Translations under genes and position numbers: made by a program
DNA from: a virus
Reading direction: 5' to 3' (one strand)
Length of the DNA stretch: 29,828 nt
IMG/VR virus record: IMGVR_UViG_3300032736_000375
Coordinates: 1 to 29,828 of that record
Shown: positions 6,738-25,074 of the stretch, one piece after another
How the letters are laid out: each line of letters starts with the position of its first letter
Numbering within the stretch: the first letter of the stretch is position 1
Notes under the pieces: model-generated
What the model was told of the DNA's origin: nothing
The model's database searches: none
Seen by the model: the letters and a program-made list of their open reading frames with translations, nothing else

Positions 6738-7085
6738 ATGGACAGACGGAAGCGATTGTCATTGGAGCGTGCGATGTGGATCCGGAGCGCTCGTGGGGCG
6801 TATGATCGTGCGCGGTCGGGTGGGTTGCCGGTCTTTTTGTGTCATCGGGCGAGTCAATTTGATGAGTGTTGTCTGGGGGTGTCTGTGGCGATGCCACGGT
6901 TAGAATTGTTCCGTCCTGATGAGGCGCCGTATGTCTCATCGTGGTGGGCAACGGGGGTGCCGTGGGATGCGGCGGAGGCGAAGGAGATTGATCGGGACCC
7001 TGGGTATGGCCAGTGGGAGGAGCGGGTCTTGGCGGCGTGTTTATTGGCGGCGATATGTGGGGAGGAGAGGCATGATGCAGTTTGA
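6738..7085 (+). CDS. phage protein of unknown function
   Basis: A 115-residue protein. The ATG at 6738 is placed 7 nt after a -10 hexamer and has no ribosome-binding site, consistent with a leaderless mRNA; an ATG at 6729 is inside the -10 and less likely. Features: basic N-terminus, FLCHRASQFDECCLG (residues 37-51), a FELF-like LELFRP segment and SSWWATG, which resemble a phage family of small alpha-helical proteins without known role. Its end overlaps the RNA ligase gene by 14 nt. Confidence 0.65.
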   Translation: MDRRKRLSLERAMWIRSARGAYDRARSGGLPVFLCHRASQFDECCLGVSVAMPRLELFRPDEAPYVSSWWATGVPWDAAEAKEIDRDPGYGQWEERVLAACLLAAICGEERHDAV

Positions 7086-7710
7086 GGGATTTCCGAAGCT
7101 ATCACGGTTATTGCGGCCGTGTGTGATCACCGAGAAGTTGGATGGGACGAATGCGCAGATTTACATTTGTCCTGAGGCGTTGCACCCGACGGGGGTCTTT
7201 GCGGGTGATCTATCGGATGGTCCGTTGGCGACTCGTGACGGGATGATGTTGTATGCGGGGTCTCGGACGCGGTATCTGACGGTGGCGCAGGACAATTTCG
7301 GGTTTGCGGCGTGGGCGTCGGTGCATGCGCACGAGTTGTTCGAGTTGGGCGAGGGGCGCCATTTTGGGGAGTGGTGGGGCCACAAGATCCAGCGCGGGTA
7401 TGGGTTGGAGGGGCGTCGGTTCAGCCTGTTCAACACGCACCGGTGGGGCCCTGGGCGCGATCTCGAGACGTATCCCGGTGAGGCGCCGGCGTGCTGTTCG
7501 GTGGTCCCGGTGTTGTACCGCGGGTTGTTCCGCACGGAGGCGGTGTTGGACGAGCTGTACGACCTCGAATCTCAGGGGTCTCGGGCCGTGCCTGGGTATC
7601 TGGAGCCGGAGGGCGTGGTGATTTACCACGAGGCGGCCGGCATGTCGTTCAAGGTGACGTTAGAGCATGATGAGGCGCCAAAGGGCACGGTTCAGAGGGG
7701 GGAGCGATGA
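7072..7710 (+). CDS. RNA ligase family (Rnl-type nucleotidyltransferase)
   Basis: A 212-residue ATP-dependent ligase-like protein that should join RNA 3'-OH and 5'-phosphate ends through a lysyl-AMP intermediate. Motif I is EKLDGTNAQ (nucleophile Lys22), the SRTR segment fits motif Ia, motif III is HFGEWWG, motif IIIa FSLFN, motif IV EPEGVVIY and motif V MSFKVTLE, all in order. The size is that of a bare nucleotidyltransferase domain with no C-terminal extension. Start chosen at the first of two adjacent ATGs (7072, 7075) with GGAGGAGAGG upstream. Such enzymes repair tRNAs cut by host defence; the tRNA-like element at 10.6 kb makes that attractive but unproven. Confidence 0.85.
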   Translation: MMQFEGFPKLSRLLRPCVITEKLDGTNAQIYICPEALHPTGVFAGDLSDGPLATRDGMMLYAGSRTRYLTVAQDNFGFAAWASVHAHELFELGEGRHFGEWWGHKIQRGYGLEGRRFSLFNTHRWGPGRDLETYPGEAPACCSVVPVLYRGLFRTEAVLDELYDLESQGSRAVPGYLEPEGVVIYHEAAGMSFKVTLEHDEAPKGTVQRGER

Positions 7711-11062: not shown

Positions 11063-11197
11063 GCTGTGTATCGTATCCAATGCGGTGTAAACTATCTATG
11101 TCACGGTGAGGGTTTTTTGCTGTTTCCACCTCTTTGTCCGCGGCGAAGCAGAACAGCGTTATCCGCGGGACGTGACGTGCGTAAGGGTCTCCGGTAT
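11063..11197. other. intergenic stretch, no supported gene
   Basis: It holds the probable -10 of the leftward gene at 10778-11062 (minus-strand TACGAT, 11070-11075). A 77-residue minus-strand frame (11055-11288) runs through it, but it has no ribosome-binding site, has a GTG start and overlaps the better-supported gene at 11198; it is treated as a shadow. Confidence 0.4.
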
Positions 11198-11998: not shown

Positions 11999-12094
11999 TT
12001 AAATCGTCCTGGCTGTGCGCACACGCACACCCACTGTGAATTTAGCGCCAGCGATGTCACCGAATTTGGAATAGCAGATCCTATCGGACATCAT
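11999..12094 (-). CDS. possible 31-residue peptide
   Basis: Minus-strand ORF starting ATGATG; encodes a short basic peptide containing FGDIAGAKFTVGVRVRTAR. It ends 12 nt before the next start, and its last codons provide the region just upstream of that gene's ribosome-binding site. No ribosome-binding site of its own is visible. Confidence 0.35.
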   Translation of the reverse strand: MMSDRICYSKFGDIAGAKFTVGVRVRTARTI

Positions 12095-12133
12095 GAGCTG
12101 GTTTTTTAATACCTTCAGGGCCTCACGCGTGAC

Positions 12134-12304
12134 CTAATCAATCGTCAGGCAGTAATTCCCGGCGGGGGCCGGGTCGTAGATCGTCTGCGTCGGCAAGAAG
12201 ATCGTCTTCTGCCCAGGCACCCAGGGCGCCTTCTCTGGGTCGAGTGCCAGGGCGGCCACGCCGGCGGCCAGGGCCGCGAGGAATGATCTACGGTTTATCG
12301 CCAA
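12134..12304 (-). CDS. small protein with twin-arginine-like signal
   Basis: A 56-residue protein read from TTG, which overlaps the end of the previous gene by 17 nt and has GAAGGG about 8 nt upstream. It starts MAINRRSFLAALAAG followed by VAALAL, giving an n-region, an R-R-x-F-L core and a hydrophobic helix as in Tat signal peptides; then DPEKAPWVPGQKTIFLP, a block I recognise from many phage mini-proteins. No consensus AxA cleavage site, so it may stay anchored. A phage tatA lies upstream in the same operon. The RR could also be a simple positive-inside anchor. Confidence 0.65.
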   Translation of the reverse strand: MAINRRSFLAALAAGVAALALDPEKAPWVPGQKTIFLPTQTIYDPAPAGNYCLTID

Positions 12305-12515
12305 GGAATAAGCCCTTCACCTGACCAAACGCTATCTCAAGTGCGTCCACAGACGGCTGCCTGAATGTGTATGCACGCTCACACACACGGCATGTCACGA
12401 TCGACACGCCGTCAGACATTGACGGGTCGTTCGCATACTCCATCTTGACACCGCATGACCGGCAGGCCACATCGTCAAGCACATGCCATAACTTAACTTT
12501 AACGTCCTTCACCAC
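12288..12515 (-). CDS. zinc-ribbon miniprotein
   Basis: A 75-residue protein with ACRSCGVKMEY and, 21 residues later, TCRVCERAYTF: two CxxC pairs, a typical zinc ribbon. It starts with tandem GTG codons behind an excellent AAAGGAGG site 6-7 nt upstream, after a 20-nt gap. Its C-terminal codons contain the ribosome-binding site and TTG start of the next gene. Confidence 0.7.
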   Translation of the reverse strand: MVKDVKVKLWHVLDDVACRSCGVKMEYANDPSMSDGVSIVTCRVCERAYTFRQPSVDALEIAFGQVKGLFLGDKP

Positions 12516-14433: not shown

Positions 14434-14632
14434 TATTGATAACTCCCATTGATCTCAGCTGGTCGATCTCCTGCTCCAGCGTGGCGACCTTAGTTAGCGC
14501 CTTATCAAGTTCATGCTCCGCGCCTTCGGCTCGCAGCGACAAGTGGATCATCTCTCGCTCCAACAGTTTCAATTCCTCAACGACCCACGGGGCCGCTTCC
14601 ACATTAGGTCGAAGACGATCTGACAAACTCAC
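14417..14632 (-). CDS. short coiled-coil protein
   Basis: A 71-residue protein, almost entirely helical with heptads (VEELKLLEREMIHLSLRAEGAEHELDKALTKVATLEQEIDQLRSMG). Its start overlaps the stop of the secreted protein gene by 4 nt. It may multimerise with the other coiled-coil proteins of this operon. Confidence 0.6.
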   Translation of the reverse strand: MSLSDRLRPNVEAAPWVVEELKLLEREMIHLSLRAEGAEHELDKALTKVATLEQEIDQLRSMGVINNEPAR

Positions 14633-14895
14633 AACCGAGCCACCACAAAAGGCAACAACAGCACGGGCCTAAGAGACCTCCTCACACGCTCCTTGCGGAG
14701 CATACGCTTCACTTCCGCGATCTCGAAGTCAGTCAGTCCAGGTCGCACTGGAGCCGTTTTTTGCACAGGCGCCTGGCGCATCACCTTCGCATAGACATCA
14801 AGACAGACATAGTCCTTATTCTTGCATTGAGCCGAGGCAACTGATGGCACCACCAATAGCAGTAACGCTACAAGTACGCCCCGCAAAAAGGTCAC
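14629..14895 (-). CDS. secreted protein with Sec signal peptide
   Basis: An 88-residue protein. Residues 1-23 are a classical Sec signal: one Arg, a Leu/Val core and ASA before Gln, with likely cleavage after Ala22. It has no twin Arg, so it is not itself a Tat substrate. Mature part has Cys24 and Cys31 (possible disulfide), a charged helix (FEIAEVKRMLRKERVRR) and a hydrophobic end (PVLLLPFVVARL) that could re-contact the membrane. The ATG overlaps the tatA stop (ATGA), so both are made together. Spanin or other envelope role is possible, not shown. Confidence 0.75.
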   Translation of the reverse strand: MTFLRGVLVALLLLVVPSVASAQCKNKDYVCLDVYAKVMRQAPVQKTAPVRPGLTDFEIAEVKRMLRKERVRRSLRPVLLLPFVVARL

Positions 14896-15074
14896 CGGCC
14901 GAGCTCATTGTTGATGTCATCTGGGTCGCCCTGGAGCTGCTTGCCTGCGGCCCTGAACTCCTTGATCGTAGACCCCAGTGACCGCCCGAACTTTGGCAAC
15001 TGAGACGGGCCAAAAATCAACAGCGCGACCCCGCCGATCACGAGCAACTCCGTTATCCCAAGTGAACCAAACAT
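14892..15074 (-). CDS. tatA: TatA/TatE-family protein translocase subunit
   Basis: A 60-residue protein with the full TatA layout: short periplasmic start MFGSLG, one membrane helix with polar Glu near its beginning (ITELLVIGGVALLIF), the hinge FGPSQLPKFGRSLG with conserved Phe-Gly-Pro and Leu-Pro, then an amphipathic helix (STIKEFRAAGKQL) and an acidic tail. In bacteria TatA oligomerises to form the pore for folded RR-signal proteins. Length is at the short end of the family. AGAGGGGAAG precedes the ATG; the gene starts 12 nt after the XRE regulator. Finding it in a phage operon, without tatB or tatC in view, is unusual; alternative use as a membrane-permeabilising (holin-like) peptide is inference. 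Confidence 0.88.
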   Translation of the reverse strand: MFGSLGITELLVIGGVALLIFGPSQLPKFGRSLGSTIKEFRAAGKQLQGDPDDINNELGR

Positions 15075-15086
15075 CTTCCCCTCTTT

Positions 15087-15308
15087 CTATGCCGACAGAC
15101 TGGACTTTGACACACGGGCGCCACTCAGCGCGGTCAGCGCATTCGCGAGTTTCCCGCATTCTTCCGTCGTGAACCCCTTCTCCACAAGGGAGAGCCGGCG
15201 GAAATCAATCCCAGCTTCGCGGCCGAGGTCGCGCAGTGAAATTCTCGACTGCGTACGGATTCCCAGGATAGGGTGCGGGTGCGGGTATTTCGACTTTTTC
15301 TGGACCAT
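15087..15308 (-). CDS. small XRE-type helix-turn-helix regulator
   Basis: A 73-residue protein, first gene of the leftward operon. Residues about 22-60 form the HTH: ISLRDLGREAG (helices 1-2), DFRRLSLVEKG (recognition helix), then ECGKLANALTALSG. Start at 15308 is chosen because GAAGGAGG lies upstream; an in-frame ATG at 15389 lies on the opposite side of the divergent promoter. It probably represses its own promoter or the rightward one through the palindrome at 15326. Confidence 0.8.
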   Translation of the reverse strand: MVQKKSKYPHPHPILGIRTQSRISLRDLGREAGIDFRRLSLVEKGFTTEECGKLANALTALSGARVSKSSLSA

Positions 15309-15325
15309 AAAACTAAAAACCTCCT

Positions 15326-15341
15326 TCGAGATGATTCTCGA
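15326..15341. promoter_or_regulatory. operator palindrome in divergent region
   Basis: TCGAGA-TGAT-TCTCGA, perfect 6-bp arms with a 4-bp centre, 17 bp upstream of the regulator start and inside its probable 5' leader, next to a minus-strand GATACGAT that can serve as -10. It is the natural candidate site for the adjacent XRE protein. Confidence 0.55.
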
Positions 15342-15371
15342 CACGGCGATCGTATCACAGAAGTCACGACA

Positions 15372-15380
15372 TGCTACAAT
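15372..15380 (+). promoter_or_regulatory. extended -10 promoter, leaderless
   Basis: TG-C-TACAAT (15372-15380), followed after 7 nt by the ATG at 15388. No convincing -35. It is divergent from the leftward operon. Confidence 0.6.
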
Positions 15381-15387
15381 GACTCGC

Positions 15388-15657
15388 ATGCCAACAAGTT
15401 ATTTGAATGAAAAATTTAACCGAATGATTAACGGCGCTCTTGAGGCGGATAAGGACCAGTTGTCCCCTCCCAGCCCACACACGATCGAGGCGTTCCGCGC
15501 CTTCTACTTTTGTGGGGCGAGCGAGTCACTGCGTCTCGCCATGTCGGCCCCCGGAGACGTGGAAGGTACTGAGAAGATTATCTCAGCGATGATCCAAGAG
15601 ATCGGGGACACCACGTATCTCAGCAAGATGGCATACAACCCACGAGTGATGCATTAG
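15388..15657 (+). CDS. hypothetical protein, divergent from regulator
   Basis: An 89-residue protein. The frame is open further upstream, but the ATG at 15388 sits 7 nt behind the -10 and so marks a leaderless start. Sequence: helical N-terminus (YLNEKFNRMINGALEADKD), FYFCGASESLRLAM, and a C-terminal IISAMIQEIGDTTYLSKMAYNP. Its position opposite an XRE regulator suggests a regulatory or anti-repressor role, but no domain is recognised. Confidence 0.6.
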   Translation: MPTSYLNEKFNRMINGALEADKDQLSPPSPHTIEAFRAFYFCGASESLRLAMSAPGDVEGTEKIISAMIQEIGDTTYLSKMAYNPRVMH

Positions 15658-17389: not shown

Positions 17390-17683
17390 ATGGCACGGGC
17401 ATCTAAGATCGGGGAGCTCAATCATAAAGGGCGCGGTCGTCCCAAAGGGACGAAGAATATCGTCCCGCCTTCATTCAAGGCGTCCCTAAAAAAGATCTTC
17501 AAAGACATAGCCACTGAGGACCCGGCCATGCTTCGCAAGGCCCTCGAGGATGGCCTTAGCGCGAAGCCCCCCTACTCGTTCCAGTACCTGCAGCTCGCAG
17601 CCCATTACATCGACGGCAAACCTTCGGACAAGGTTGAGCATGACGGCAACGTCACGATTACATGGAAAACGGACGAGTCATAG
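17390..17683 (+). CDS. terS: probable terminase small subunit
   Basis: A 97-residue protein directly before terL. The N-terminus has GRGRPKGTKN, an AT-hook-like basic segment seen at the start of many small terminase and DUF5681-type proteins; the middle is helical (FKASLKKIFKDIATEDPAMLRKALEDGL). It should recognise the packaging site and feed DNA to the large subunit. The start is leaderless. It overlaps terL by 22 nt. It is shorter than typical TerS, so the call rests partly on position. Confidence 0.6.
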   Translation: MARASKIGELNHKGRGRPKGTKNIVPPSFKASLKKIFKDIATEDPAMLRKALEDGLSAKPPYSFQYLQLAAHYIDGKPSDKVEHDGNVTITWKTDES

Positions 17684-19068
17684 AAATCCCGTACGCCCCG
17701 CGTAAGTGGGCGATGCGCATTCATAACACCAAGAAGCGGTGGATTTCTGCCATCTTGCACCGGCGTGCCGGCAAGACCACGGGCATCATCAATCACCACC
17801 AGCGAGCGGCCCTGGATGACAACTGGGAGCGTGAGCGTATCAGGTCATTGATGCCAGAGCTCACCGATAAAGAAATTGCCCCCCTGCTGCGTAATCGGTT
17901 CTATGGGCATGTGATGCCGACGCGTGTCCAGGCCAAGATGGTGGCATGGGACATGGTGAAGTACTACTCGGCCGGCACAGGCGCCACGTACAACGAAGCC
18001 GAACTCCTAGTGAGATATCCGAACGGATCTCGGTTCCAGTTATTTGGCGCTGACTCGCCAGACTCGCTACGAGGGCCTGGTTTCTCTGGTCTTTCGTTCG
18101 ACGAATACAGCCAGCAGGCCCCGAGCATCTTTTCTGAAGTCCTTTCGAAAGCGCTCGCCGATCACCTTGGGTACGCCATCTTCGCAGGCACGGTCAAGGG
18201 GAAGGACCACCTCTACAGGACCTACGAAGAGGGAAAGAAATCAGACCAGTGGGAGTGTATCTGGCAGGATATTGACGCCTCGATCGCCACGGAGGGTGGC
18301 CCGACGGTCAAGACCCTCAAGCGAGCCATGTCCGACGATCGGTCCCTGGTGCTCCAGGGGCTCATGACCCAGGACGAATTCGACCAGGAGTGGTATCTCA
18401 GCACCGACGCGGCCATCAAGGGCGCGATCTACATGAAAGAGTTGTCTGCCGCAAGGGATGGAGGCCGGTTCACTGAGGTGCCGTATGACCTCTTGCTTCC
18501 GGTGGACACAGATTGGGACATTGGGATGGGAGATTCTACCTGCATCTGGTTCTCCCAAAGCTTCCGCGGTGGCGAGGTCAGGGTGATCGACTATTTCGAA
18601 GCCAGTGGCGAGGGACTTCCTTTCTACGTGAAGATGCTCAAGGACAAGGGGTATGTCTACGGCGACCATTGGGCTCCACATGACATCCAGGTACGTGAGT
18701 ACTCCTCTGGTAAGAAGCGCATCGACGTCGCCAAGTCTTTAGGCATCCCGTTCAAGGTGTGCCCCAAAATCCCTGTAGAGGATGGAATCCACGCGACTCG
18801 GTTATTCTTTTCTAAGTGCTGGTTTGACGAGCGAAAGACGCGGCCTGGTATCGAGGCTCTCCGTCACTATCGCCGTGACTTCAGCCACAAGACTGGGGAG
18901 TTCAAGGACTCACCAGTTCATGACTGGTCTTCACACGCGTCAGACGCGTTTCGGACGCTTGCCGTTAGGCACCGGAACCCGCGTGAAAAGAAGAAAGACA
19001 CAGACGCGTTAGGCGTCATCGCTGGTATAGGATCCCGCGGAGTCGAGCAAAAATGGATGAGCTCGTAA
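17662..19068 (+). CDS. terL: terminase large subunit (packaging ATPase-nuclease)
   Basis: A 468-residue DNA-packaging motor. ATPase: Walker A HRRAGKTT (33-40) and Walker B LSFDEY (acidic pair at 147-148), preceded by LRGPGFSG as in many terminases. Nuclease: first Asp in DTDWDIGMGDST (near residue 282), then GDHWAPHD and the final HDWSSHASDAFR (near 440), the acidic/His set of the RNase H-like fold. The length is normal. It translocates DNA into the procapsid through the portal encoded downstream. Confidence 0.95.
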   Translation: MENGRVIEIPYAPRKWAMRIHNTKKRWISAILHRRAGKTTGIINHHQRAALDDNWERERIRSLMPELTDKEIAPLLRNRFYGHVMPTRVQAKMVAWDMVKYYSAGTGATYNEAELLVRYPNGSRFQLFGADSPDSLRGPGFSGLSFDEYSQQAPSIFSEVLSKALADHLGYAIFAGTVKGKDHLYRTYEEGKKSDQWECIWQDIDASIATEGGPTVKTLKRAMSDDRSLVLQGLMTQDEFDQEWYLSTDAAIKGAIYMKELSAARDGGRFTEVPYDLLLPVDTDWDIGMGDSTCIWFSQSFRGGEVRVIDYFEASGEGLPFYVKMLKDKGYVYGDHWAPHDIQVREYSSGKKRIDVAKSLGIPFKVCPKIPVEDGIHATRLFFSKCWFDERKTRPGIEALRHYRRDFSHKTGEFKDSPVHDWSSHASDAFRTLAVRHRNPREKKKDTDALGVIAGIGSRGVEQKWMSS

Positions 19069-19868: not shown

Positions 19869-20137
19869 CCCGTCCGTCGTCTGTGACTGACAACGGTTAC
19901 GGACGTAAGTCTATGAATATCTTAAAGATGGCGTCTATCGACATCGCTGACACGGTTCAGCGAGCGCATCGGTTCAAAGACGCATCTTACCTATTCTCGG
20001 AGAAGTCACTGGCCCGCAAGTGCCAAGAGATGCAGGACCGAGGATATATCGATCGGGCACGCGGTGCGCCCTGGCACCAGTCATGGCTGACGGATAAAGG
20101 CCGTCAAGTCTTGGAGACGGTCTCAATGAGTGGCTAA
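19865..20137 (+). CDS. winged-helix-like small protein
   Basis: A 90-residue protein started by GTG in a GTGA overlap. Residues about 48-86 (SLARKCQEMQDRGYIDRARGAPWHQSWLTDKGRQVLE) show the recognition-helix and wing pattern of winged-helix domains, where the last strand ends in LT-x-x-G. Possible DNA-binding role in late control or packaging. Its last 8 nt overlap the portal gene start. Confidence 0.55.
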   Translation: MTRPSSVTDNGYGRKSMNILKMASIDIADTVQRAHRFKDASYLFSEKSLARKCQEMQDRGYIDRARGAPWHQSWLTDKGRQVLETVSMSG

Positions 20138-22463
20138 CGGTACATACAAAGAGCTCACCGGGGACCTGAAAATCGTTTCACGGTCTGAGTCTGATTCGCC
20201 TGAATCGAAGAGCAAGCGGGAGAAGGTCGCATCCTTCTTACGCCTAGCCAGAGACAGGTTTCAGATGGTTTCTGACGCCGAAAGCGATCTGCGCCGTTCT
20301 CAACTGGAGGACCTTGAATTCGTTTCAAGCGAGCAGTGGCCGGCCGACATTAAGGCCGACCGAGCGGCGGAGGGGCGCCCGTGCCTCACGATCAACCGAC
20401 TCCCCCAGTTTATTCGCCAGGTCACCAACCAGGCACGAGGCTCCAGGCCGTCGATCCAGGTGAACCCCAAGGGCGGCGGAGCCACAATGAAAACAGCCGA
20501 GATCCTACAGGGTCTCGTGAGAGATATCGAGCTCGAGAGCGATGCCGAGGTGGCCTACATCACCGGCGCCGACTCACAAGCGAAAATTGGCCGAGGTTTT
20601 TGGCGCGTGGTCACTGAATATTCAGAAGACCCCACCAGCTTTGACCAGGTGATCCGCATTAGGCGGATTCGCAACCCCTTCACGGTCTACATCGATCCCA
20701 GTACGCAACGGGCTGACGCCAGTGACGCAAAATTCTGTTTCATCGTTGAAGACCTCAGCCATGATGAATACGAGAATCGGTTCGGAAAACAGGACCCCGC
20801 CTCGCTCTCAGAGTTTGCGACAATCGGTGACGACACCCCGCTCTGGCTACCCAACGGAGGTATCCGTATAGCCGAATATTGGTATGTCGAAGAGGAAGAA
20901 GAAACCCTCTATGACATCTACATCGAGCCCAATCCCCTCCAGGCCGATTCAGTCGGGATCAGGATGCAGGTGGAAGGGTCAGCGATCGACATCAAATCCC
21001 TGCCTCCGCACCAAATCCTCAATGAGCGCACGAGAAAAGTGTCGAAGGTCAAGACCTCGTTGATTAACGGGGTCAAGATCCTCGAAGGGAACAAAGACAA
21101 GACGTCAGGCGCTGACTGGCCTGGTAAGTGGATACCCGTCGTCCCAGTGATCGGGGAAGAGATCGACCTCAATGGACGCGTGGATTACCGCGGCATGGTC
21201 AGGGATGCCAGGGAGCCGCAGCGAGCCTACAACTTCTGGATTAGCGCGGCCACCGAAGCCGTGGCCCTGGCGCCCAAAGCCCCATGGGTCATGGCGTATG
21301 GGCAAGACGAAGGCTTCGAGACCATGTGGGATCAGGCCAACGTCAAAAACTTCTCGCGCCTCATCTACAAGCCTGTGGATGCGAATGGGCAACTCGCCCC
21401 ACCCCCACAGCGTCAGACACTTGACCCCGCGATCTCTGCGATTACCTCCCTCATTCATCAGGCCGATAACGACCTGAAGGCGACCATTGGGTTCTATGAC
21501 GCCAGCCTGGGTAACTCCAGACCAGAGCAGTCAGGCAAGGCCATCCTTGCGCAGCAGAAGCAGAGCGAGATCGGGAACAGCAATTACCTCGACAACCTGG
21601 GCCGCGGTATTCGCCATACGGGACGAATTATTATTGACCTTATTCCCAAGGTGCTCGAACGACCGCAGATTGTTCGCATTATCGAGCACGACGATAAGCC
21701 CAGGATGGTCCAGCATGTCCCAGGGGGCGTGATGCCTGAGGGAGAAACCCTCCCTGAGGGGATACTCGAAACGGATGTCTACGACCTCACGCAAGGGCAG
21801 TACGATGTGTCTGTGTCGATTGGCCCATCGTGGGCGTCAAAGCGACAGGAAGCGGTCGCTCAGATGGGCGAGTTGATCCAATCCAACCCAGCGATGGCGC
21901 AAGTCATTGGCGACCTGTGGGTGGGAAACATGGACTCCCCATGGGCGCAAGATGCCGCCAAGAGGCTGAAGAAAACGGTCCCACCGAACCTCCTCGAGGA
22001 GTCTGAGGGAGGACAGCCACAGATCCCCCCTGAAATCCAGCAGCAGATGGAGCAGGCGCAGCAACAGATTCAGCAGCTCACGGGAGCGCTGACTGAGGCC
22101 CAGCAATCGTTGGCGGCGAAGAAGGAACAGTCCGCGGCCCAGGCCCAGATTGCCCAGACCGAGACACAGGCGGATATCCAACGGGCCCAGATTGAGGCTG
22201 CCTCCAGGGCGAAAGTCGAAGAGATTCGTGCGCAGTCTGGCATGGCCGAAGTGCGGGCCAGGGTCGAGAGTGACCGGCTCATCATGGAGATGAAGACCGA
22301 GAACCAGCGCATGCTGGCAGAGATGAAGGCTCAGAATGACTCGTCATTGAAGCGGATGGAGCACGCGTTCTCATCACGGAAGGACGAAGACGAAGCGATG
22401 CGTCAGTCGATTGAGGCTGAGCGCGAAGATCGGGCAAAAAAGAAGCCGATCTACGGGGAATGA
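20130..22463 (+). CDS. portal protein, P22 type
   Basis: A 777-residue portal, forming the twelve-fold ring at the packaging vertex that connects capsid, motor and tail. It begins with GTG overlapping the preceding gene. The N-terminal region has QLEDLEFVSSEQWPADIK and RPCLTINRLPQFIRQVTNQAR (residues 52-100), the typical P22-like portal opening; RDAREPQRAYNFWISAATE (around 355) and GFYDASLGNSRPEQSGKAI (around 455) are also typical. From about residue 630 a long Gln/Ala/Glu coiled coil follows, comparable to the helical barrel of P22 portal. Confidence 0.92.
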   Translation: MANGTYKELTGDLKIVSRSESDSPESKSKREKVASFLRLARDRFQMVSDAESDLRRSQLEDLEFVSSEQWPADIKADRAAEGRPCLTINRLPQFIRQVTNQARGSRPSIQVNPKGGGATMKTAEILQGLVRDIELESDAEVAYITGADSQAKIGRGFWRVVTEYSEDPTSFDQVIRIRRIRNPFTVYIDPSTQRADASDAKFCFIVEDLSHDEYENRFGKQDPASLSEFATIGDDTPLWLPNGGIRIAEYWYVEEEEETLYDIYIEPNPLQADSVGIRMQVEGSAIDIKSLPPHQILNERTRKVSKVKTSLINGVKILEGNKDKTSGADWPGKWIPVVPVIGEEIDLNGRVDYRGMVRDAREPQRAYNFWISAATEAVALAPKAPWVMAYGQDEGFETMWDQANVKNFSRLIYKPVDANGQLAPPPQRQTLDPAISAITSLIHQADNDLKATIGFYDASLGNSRPEQSGKAILAQQKQSEIGNSNYLDNLGRGIRHTGRIIIDLIPKVLERPQIVRIIEHDDKPRMVQHVPGGVMPEGETLPEGILETDVYDLTQGQYDVSVSIGPSWASKRQEAVAQMGELIQSNPAMAQVIGDLWVGNMDSPWAQDAAKRLKKTVPPNLLEESEGGQPQIPPEIQQQMEQAQQQIQQLTGALTEAQQSLAAKKEQSAAQAQIAQTETQADIQRAQIEAASRAKVEEIRAQSGMAEVRARVESDRLIMEMKTENQRMLAEMKAQNDSSLKRMEHAFSSRKDEDEAMRQSIEAEREDRAKKKPIYGE

Positions 22464-23613: not shown

Positions 23614-23841
23614 TTCCCTATTTGGCGGTGGGCTGGTCTTGTGTGGCCCAACCTGCCGCCAACGCTCCTCCCTGGAGTGCCGTTCGACGCCGCACTGTAA
23701 AGTAAGACCTATTTCGACCTAACGGTCGCCATTGACGTTCTCAGCGGGTCGTCATTTTCTACTCGCTGTCTGGCCGTTACTCACGCGGAATCGGCTGCCG
23801 CATCCACTTTCTTTGTTTTCTCGTTGAGAGAGGCCTTTATT
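23614..23841 (+). promoter_or_regulatory. leader region of the coat gene
   Basis: The 228-nt gap holds a stem-loop (TGGCGG at 23623-23628 with CCGCCA at 23656-23661, plus an inner TGGGC/GCCCA pairing) and a possible promoter starting TTGACG near 23733, with a poor -10. A separate promoter or processing site here would raise coat protein output. No gene is supported. Confidence 0.4.
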
Positions 23842-25074
23842 ATGGCAGCCCCATCAAACACTCTGCTTACGATCGCAATGATCACTCGAGAGGCACTCCG
23901 TGTTCTCGAAAACAGCCTGACGTTCACCCGTCAGGTCTCCCGTCAGTTCGATGACAAGTTCGGCGTCGAAGGCGCCAAGATTGGGACCGTGCTGAACGTA
24001 CGCAAACCGCCGCGTTACGTGGGACGTACCGGCCAGTCGCTGGCGATTGAAGCCGCAACCGAATCCCAGGTGCCCGTCACGTTGGACACCCAGTTCGGTG
24101 TGGATATCAGCTTCAGCTCTCAGGACCTTGCACTGTCGATTGACGACTTCAGCGAGCGCTTCCTGAAGCCGGCGATTTCCACCGTGGCCAACAAGATGGA
24201 CGCCGACGGCTTGAAGCTGTACAAGCAGATTGCCAACTTCGTCGGAGCCCCTGGCACCACGCCAAGCGCGTGGCTGACCTACCTGGACGCCGGCGTGAAG
24301 CTCGACAACGCGTCGTGCCCACAGGACGGGCAGCGAAGCATCGTGATGACTCCCCGCATGCAGGCGACGTTGGTCGATGCACTCAAGGGGCTCTTCCAGG
24401 CTTCGAACGACATCGCCACTCAGTACCGCAAGGGCAAGATGGGCACGTCGGCCGGGTTCGACTTCTACATGGACCAGAACTGCGCCTCGCACACCGTCGG
24501 TGCGCTGGGTGGCACGCCTCTGGCTAACGCGGCAACCGCGCAGACCGGTTCCTCGATCATCACGGATGGCTGGACGGCTGCGGTCGCCACTCGCCTGAAG
24601 CGTGGTGACGTGATCCAGTTCGCCGGCGTGAACGAAGTCAACACGCAGTCGCGTGAAGACATCGGCGTCCTCAAGGACTTCGTGGTGACGGCTGACTCGG
24701 CCTCGGACGGTTCGGGCAACCTGACGGTCTCGATTAGCCCGTCGATCGTGATTACTGGTGCGAACCAGAACGCGTCGGCTGGCGTGGCCAACAACGCCGT
24801 GGTGACCGTGTTTGGCAGCGCGAGCGCGTATGCGAGCAAGGTGTCGCCGACGGCGCTGGCGTTCCACAAGGATGCATTCACGATGGCGTGTGCCGACCTT
24901 CCATTGCCCCGCGGCGTGGACATGGCCGCTCGCGTGTCGGACAAGCAGCTCGGAATCTCCGTGCGCATGATCCGTGCTTACGACATCAATTCTGACCAGT
25001 TCCCCTGCCGTTTGGACGTGCTCTACGGCTGGTCGGCACTGCGTCCCGAGTTGGCTTGTCGCATTCAGGGCTAG
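23842..25074 (+). CDS. major coat protein, P22 gp5 type
   Basis: A 410-residue coat protein. ATG at 23842 has GAGAGAGG 8-9 nt upstream. Family features: LTIAMITREALRVLENSLTFTRQVSRQFDDKFG at the start, GTVLNVRKPPRYVGRTGQ (about 50-67), and near the end PRGVDMAARVSDKQLGISVRMIRAYDINSDQFPCRLDVLYGW, the usual closing strand of P22-like coats. Domain order fits the HK97 fold with an inserted Ig-like domain (residues about 220-330). Its codons are more biased and G/C-ending than in neighbouring genes, as expected for the most expressed gene. Confidence 0.93.
   Translation: MAAPSNTLLTIAMITREALRVLENSLTFTRQVSRQFDDKFGVEGAKIGTVLNVRKPPRYVGRTGQSLAIEAATESQVPVTLDTQFGVDISFSSQDLALSIDDFSERFLKPAISTVANKMDADGLKLYKQIANFVGAPGTTPSAWLTYLDAGVKLDNASCPQDGQRSIVMTPRMQATLVDALKGLFQASNDIATQYRKGKMGTSAGFDFYMDQNCASHTVGALGGTPLANAATAQTGSSIITDGWTAAVATRLKRGDVIQFAGVNEVNTQSREDIGVLKDFVVTADSASDGSGNLTVSISPSIVITGANQNASAGVANNAVVTVFGSASAYASKVSPTALAFHKDAFTMACADLPLPRGVDMAARVSDKQLGISVRMIRAYDINSDQFPCRLDVLYGWSALRPELACRIQG

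Follow-up and report, generated by a model that had tools for sequence, protein, structure and literature searches.

A phage-encoded TatA and a family of putative Tat leaders, many of which precede coat protein fragments

A TatA gene in a P22-like phage contig

The window analyzed here is a single stretch of 29,828 nucleotides, positions 1 to 29,828 of the IMG/VR virus record IMGVR_UViG_3300032736_000375. It is a phage contig, filed as a virus record and encoding terminase, P22-like portal and P22-type coat genes (Table 1). It also carries a short tatA gene and, some way further along that strand (about 2.6 kb downstream), an ORF with a Tat-type leader that was overlooked in the initial annotation. 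Two other matches were found in the window. A CyVA-1 RNA family match at 11100-11176 (+ strand; 51.4 bits against a gathering threshold of 41.4) lies on the strand opposite to the tatA cluster and may hint at the host group. One ORF, assigned by eye and probably that at 6919-7710 (+), matches the phrog_548 RNA ligase family (E 1e-22).

Table 1. Positions of the features discussed in the window.
Feature	Position	Strand	Basis
In-frame continuation past the TAG stop, resembling the P22-type coat N-arm	11999..12133	-	three-frame translation
Putative Tat-leader ORF, TTG start, RRSFL signal and LDPEKAPWVPGQKTIFLP motif	12134..12304	-	TIGR01409; PF10518 sub-threshold; 77 distinct relatives
75-aa ORF overlapping the start of the Tat-leader ORF	12288..12515	-	ORF list; best PHROG E 0.035
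Sec-signal protein, 88 aa, probably not Tat cargo	14629..14895	-	sequence; no Pfam family
tatA, TatA subunit, 60 aa	14892..15074	-	PF02416, TIGR01411 and NF011430 above cut-offs; helix-hinge-helix model
Possible HTH regulator upstream of tatA	15087..15389	-	HTH_3 E 0.021, below cut-off
Terminase large subunit	17662..19068	+	phrog_2 E 4e-14
P22-like portal protein	20130..22463	+	phrog_156 E 5e-128
P22-type major coat protein (coat-A fragment family)	23824..25074	+	PF11651 E 2e-43; phrog_283 E 1.5e-84

The tatA ORF encodes a true TatA, a new member of a known family. The initial annotation credited it with every hallmark of a TatA subunit and proposed a search against the TatA/TatE profile, and curated profiles, an alignment and a structural model all bear this out. 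The match to PF02416 (TatA_B_E) is significant (E 6.9e-18, 64.1 bits, cut-off 21), and the protein also exceeds the cut-offs of TIGR01411 (tatAE; 60.3 bits, cut-off 53.9) and NF011430 (63.5 bits, cut-off 62). The TatB model gives 31.6 bits, under its cut-off of 56.5. When seven phage and eight cellular TatAs are aligned, G6, E9, F21-G22, L26-P27 and G34 do not vary. In the window protein the FG hinge and the LP and G positions are kept, as is an acidic residue ahead of the membrane helix. An AlphaFold2 model (mean pLDDT 80) consists of a helix at residues 3-21, a hinge, and a second helix at residues 25-48. A profile search of the PDB returned B. subtilis TatAd (2l16), E. coli TatA (2lzr) and chloroplast TATA (7b7o) with E values of 2.6e-19, 3.2e-16 and 1.8e-13, respectively. 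Foldseek found no match for the model, perhaps because it comprises two helices only.

The phage TatAs share with cellular TatA/TatE the family profile, the conserved residues and the helix-hinge-helix architecture, but they are 52-70 aa long, come without tatC and lie beside phage Tat-signal genes. A tree with cellular TatAs, also suggested at annotation, groups the phage TatAs together and apart from the cellular ones, although it is poorly resolved and compatible with either one or two origins of phage TatA. As originally noted, neither tatB nor tatC is visible in the window. A PF02416 search of the window recovers a single gene, the TatA ORF, and a PF00902 profile search for TatC is negative in the window and in the six other phage contigs with TatA (0/7). 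The initial annotation had raised a host fragment with tatABC as the counter-case; the contig is phage and no TatC was found in it.

The gene that follows tatA was first described as encoding a secreted protein coupled to TatA. Its GTG start does overlap the tatA stop codon and the signal is of the Sec type. However, the signal, read by eye, is of the ASA type, strongly hydrophobic and with a single arginine, so the protein is unlikely to use Tat and is probably not the cargo of TatA. The call of an XRE regulator next to tatA is weaker than was stated, its match to HTH_3 being sub-threshold (Table 1).

Leader proteins and their coat protein fragments

The leader ORF of the window (MAINRRSFLAALAAGVAALALDPEKAPWVPGQKTIFLP) scores 24.5 bits with TIGR01409 (cut-off 16.7), and the Pfam Tat-signal model PF10518 remains sub-threshold. 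It belongs to a family with the pattern RRxFL-(hydrophobic)-LDPERLLWVPGxKTIF(I/L)P and the consensus [NSDT]RRxFLxxL...LDP[ED][RK]LLWVPGxK[TL]I[FS][IL]P. Searched without its arginines, the leader pattern recovers at least 120 stretches from the viral collection. Among 69 distinct motif hits, RRx[FLIVMY] is present upstream in 67 and a hydrophobic stretch in 68. At E<0.01, TIGR01409 matches only 15 of 77 leader proteins; every other family matches one at most. The spacing from the twin arginines to the W motif (19/20, 23 or 26/27 residues) looked helical, but when each distinct spacing is given a single count little signal is left (resultant 0.3), and the idea was dropped.

The phage leaders resemble bacterial Tat signal peptides (TIGR01409, PF10518) in the twin arginine, the F/L positions and a moderately hydrophobic core. 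They differ in the fixed LDPERLLWVPGxKTIF motif that follows, in the capsid pieces that they carry and in the AxA signal peptidase site, which is found in the expected stretch of only 17 of 78 leaders. The resemblance suggests that the leader uses Tat. Uncleaved Tat anchors exist, and because the cleavage site is usually missing the cargo would stay anchored to the inner membrane, on its outer face. Close pairs of leader proteins have a whole-protein dN/dS of 0.07-0.27. Constraint extends to the C-terminal part wherever this could be estimated, which indicates that the leader ORFs are real proteins. This phage family is apparently undescribed. PHROGs offers only weak coat-protein matches, linking nine leader proteins to the major head protein phrog_283 (best E 0.001).

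Fragments of major coat proteins, from two coat families, are found in 33 of the 77 leader proteins. A P22-type coat profile matches 16 or 17 of the C-terminal parts at E<0.01, depending on which of two profile builds is used (best E 6.6e-20), and a second family of the phrog_14242 type matches 16 others; no protein has both. Reversed sequences gave no match, and 770 shuffled sequences gave one with the first build and none with the second. Portal, terminase, scaffold and tail profiles each had one match or none. The fragments come from the coat N-arm, an internal domain or the C-end, as in the 17 leader proteins with stretches of the P22-type major coat (PF11651, phrog_283). They are always partial, never full-length, and the intact coat gene is separate. 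In all ten cases where it could be tested, the fragment belongs to the same family as the phage's own coat protein. The remaining 44 leader proteins have no recognized cargo. For a leader protein with the coat-A internal domain, AlphaFold2 produced a poor model (pLDDT 54). For a phrog_14242-like major coat family, comprising L255:12836-14077 and relatives in G060, G092 and G109, a search of 50,697 phage records at E 1e-5 gave no relative. The phages with this coat also encode members of the Tat-leader family.

In the window the leader gene is broken by an in-frame TAG (12134-12136, - strand) where the coat N-arm-like stretch begins, and the frame continues beyond it. The same N-arm-like piece follows the leader in L122, L112 and L132, and open N-arm copies occur in other phages. 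The window copy could be a pseudogene or a shortened form, or the stop could be a sequencing error. TAG recoding was considered as the cause and set aside because terminase, portal and coat all read as open frames with table 11.

Co-occurrence of TatA and Tat-signal genes

A TatA-hinge pattern was used to scan 2.9 million viral contigs and matched five; the pattern catches only one hinge style, and further phage TatAs may have escaped it. Each of the five has genes for TatA and for one or more Tat-signal proteins. When the window and a contig located through its leader are added, phage TatA is accompanied by a phage Tat-signal protein in 7/7 cases, and in five of the seven the genes adjoin or lie in one same-strand cluster. 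The closest viral relative of the window TatA is encoded on G001, 2 nt after a leader protein gene, and this contig encodes a second leader protein as well. In G034 tatA overlaps a leader gene that in turn overlaps portal, with scaffold and coat beyond. In the contig found from its leader (G057), the start of tatA overlaps the stop of the leader gene, with terminase genes beyond. In G056 tatA is followed by one small ORF and then by Tat-signal ORFs, five in all, ahead of terminase. G030 has tatA and then two Tat-signal ORFs within 100 nt, with a divergent leader (KELWLPKKTI). In G055 tatA lies about 10.6 kb from the nearest of four Tat-signal ORFs.

Two of these contigs have further features. 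Four of the G056 Tat-signal proteins (L116:5183-7806, - strand) have neither the LLWVPGxK motif nor a PHROG match, and coat-like stretches are visible by eye in one of them. Just downstream of the tatA and Tat-signal genes of G030 lies an apparent fusion of sulfate adenylyltransferase GTPase-like and PAPS-reductase-like parts (L079:2279-3565; by eye).

Several observations count against a role in export: the distance between tatA and leader genes in the window and in G055, the early stop in the leader gene of the window, the divergence of the G030 leader, and the low share of leaders (15 of 77) that the generic Tat-signal model matches at E<0.01. The leader is also much more common than TatA. 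Only three of about 91 leader-bearing contigs encode TatA and 88 do not, which indicates that the host Tat alone may suffice or that tatA lies off the fragment. Neither gene is seen in the available DNA of 24 relatives of the window terminase, a weak control drawn from partial contigs. Were the contigs independent, which is true only in part, the contrast of 7/7 with 0/24 would arise by chance with a probability of about 4e-7. TatA matches in INPHARED were also considered. H2 (L259, CAKLQH020000024.1), filed as Acinetobacter phage MD-2021a, carries tatABC beside ssu transporter genes and was rejected as bacterial DNA; H1 and H4 are unannotated, unverified wastewater contigs and were left out. 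Tat leaders are absent from the parts examined of Xanthomonas phage PBR31 and of two Manatee Spring genomes, so these leaders are not standard in P22-like phages.

The association could reflect a single phage lineage. tatA would then be a host-derived passenger kept for general fitness, with no functional link to the leader. The P22-type coat and portal common to six of the seven TatA contigs, and the clustering of phage TatAs on the tree, are what such descent would leave. We nevertheless regard it as unlikely. The contigs include at least two terminase lineages, and G030 matches none of the P22-type coat, portal and terminase genes. Adjacency of tatA and Tat-signal genes recurs in different gene orders, and the relatives of the window terminase, as far as these partial contigs extend, lack both genes.

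Phage TatA and the host Tat translocase

In the Tat pathway cargo binds a receptor that contains TatC, and many copies of TatA are then recruited (PMC9251779). We consider it probable that phage TatA tops up the host translocase for the export of phage Tat cargo. The phage protein would join the host translocase by polymerizing on the substrate-loaded, TatC-containing receptor, and so would work with a TatC that the host is presumed to supply. The added TatA would raise the capacity to export phage Tat-signal proteins or to insert them into the membrane. With much Tat cargo and a short infection TatA could be limiting, and a tatA gene beside the cargo genes would relieve that limit. A boost to host Tat export was among the options of the initial annotation and is the best supported of them, on grounds that the annotation had not seen: it is favored because phage Tat-signal proteins accompany every phage TatA found.

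Excess or mismatched TatA might instead jam the receptor, with leader proteins occupying it, and thereby stop host export or starve competitors. TatA without TatC in 7/7 contigs would fit such sabotage, as would the many leader proteins without AxA, which could stay on the receptor. However, jamming requires no conserved cargo, whereas purifying selection acts on the C-terminal parts, and these include coat fragments that match the phage's own coat in family. Most leader-bearing phages, moreover, have no TatA. This explanation is improbable.

Least likely of all is the holin-like use put forward in the initial annotation, in which the membrane and amphipathic helices of TatA thin the membrane for lysis without TatC; the phage TatAs keep the residues conserved in working TatAs, and their neighbors are mostly Tat-signal genes, with no endolysin or other lysis gene beside any of them. 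The holin TpeE of the TpeE/BhlA family shares with phage TatA a short membrane helix followed by an amphipathic helix, and has been likened to TatA in topology with a similar membrane-weakening mechanism proposed, but the same review considers the two unrelated in sequence (PMC9527704), and the TatA motifs differ. The initial annotation saw no holin or endolysin in the window, and no lysis family is listed among the window matches or in those shown for G055. This would fit a holin role, but the contigs are fragments, in which a lack of lysis genes says little.

If phage TatA serves the export of phage cargo, the purpose of exported coat fragments is a matter for guesses, such as envelope modification or competition with other phages. 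A broader and more tentative possibility is a widespread phage strategy in which pieces of the phage's own capsid are tagged with Tat leaders and displayed on the outer face of the inner membrane, some phages adding TatA, as a device for interference, exclusion or immune evasion.

We know of no described phage that combines a part of the Tat machine with dedicated Tat cargo. In the open-access literature searched, neither a phage tatA nor a phage Tat cargo that includes coat fragments is reported. A 2026 Klebsiella screen that examined its phages for Tat signals detected none (PMC13412088). As far as can be told, phage TatA together with Tat-tagged coat fragments is a new arrangement. It turns three points into testable questions: whether host export is topped up by phages, why fragments of the capsid would be exported, and whether the supply of TatA limits flux through Tat.
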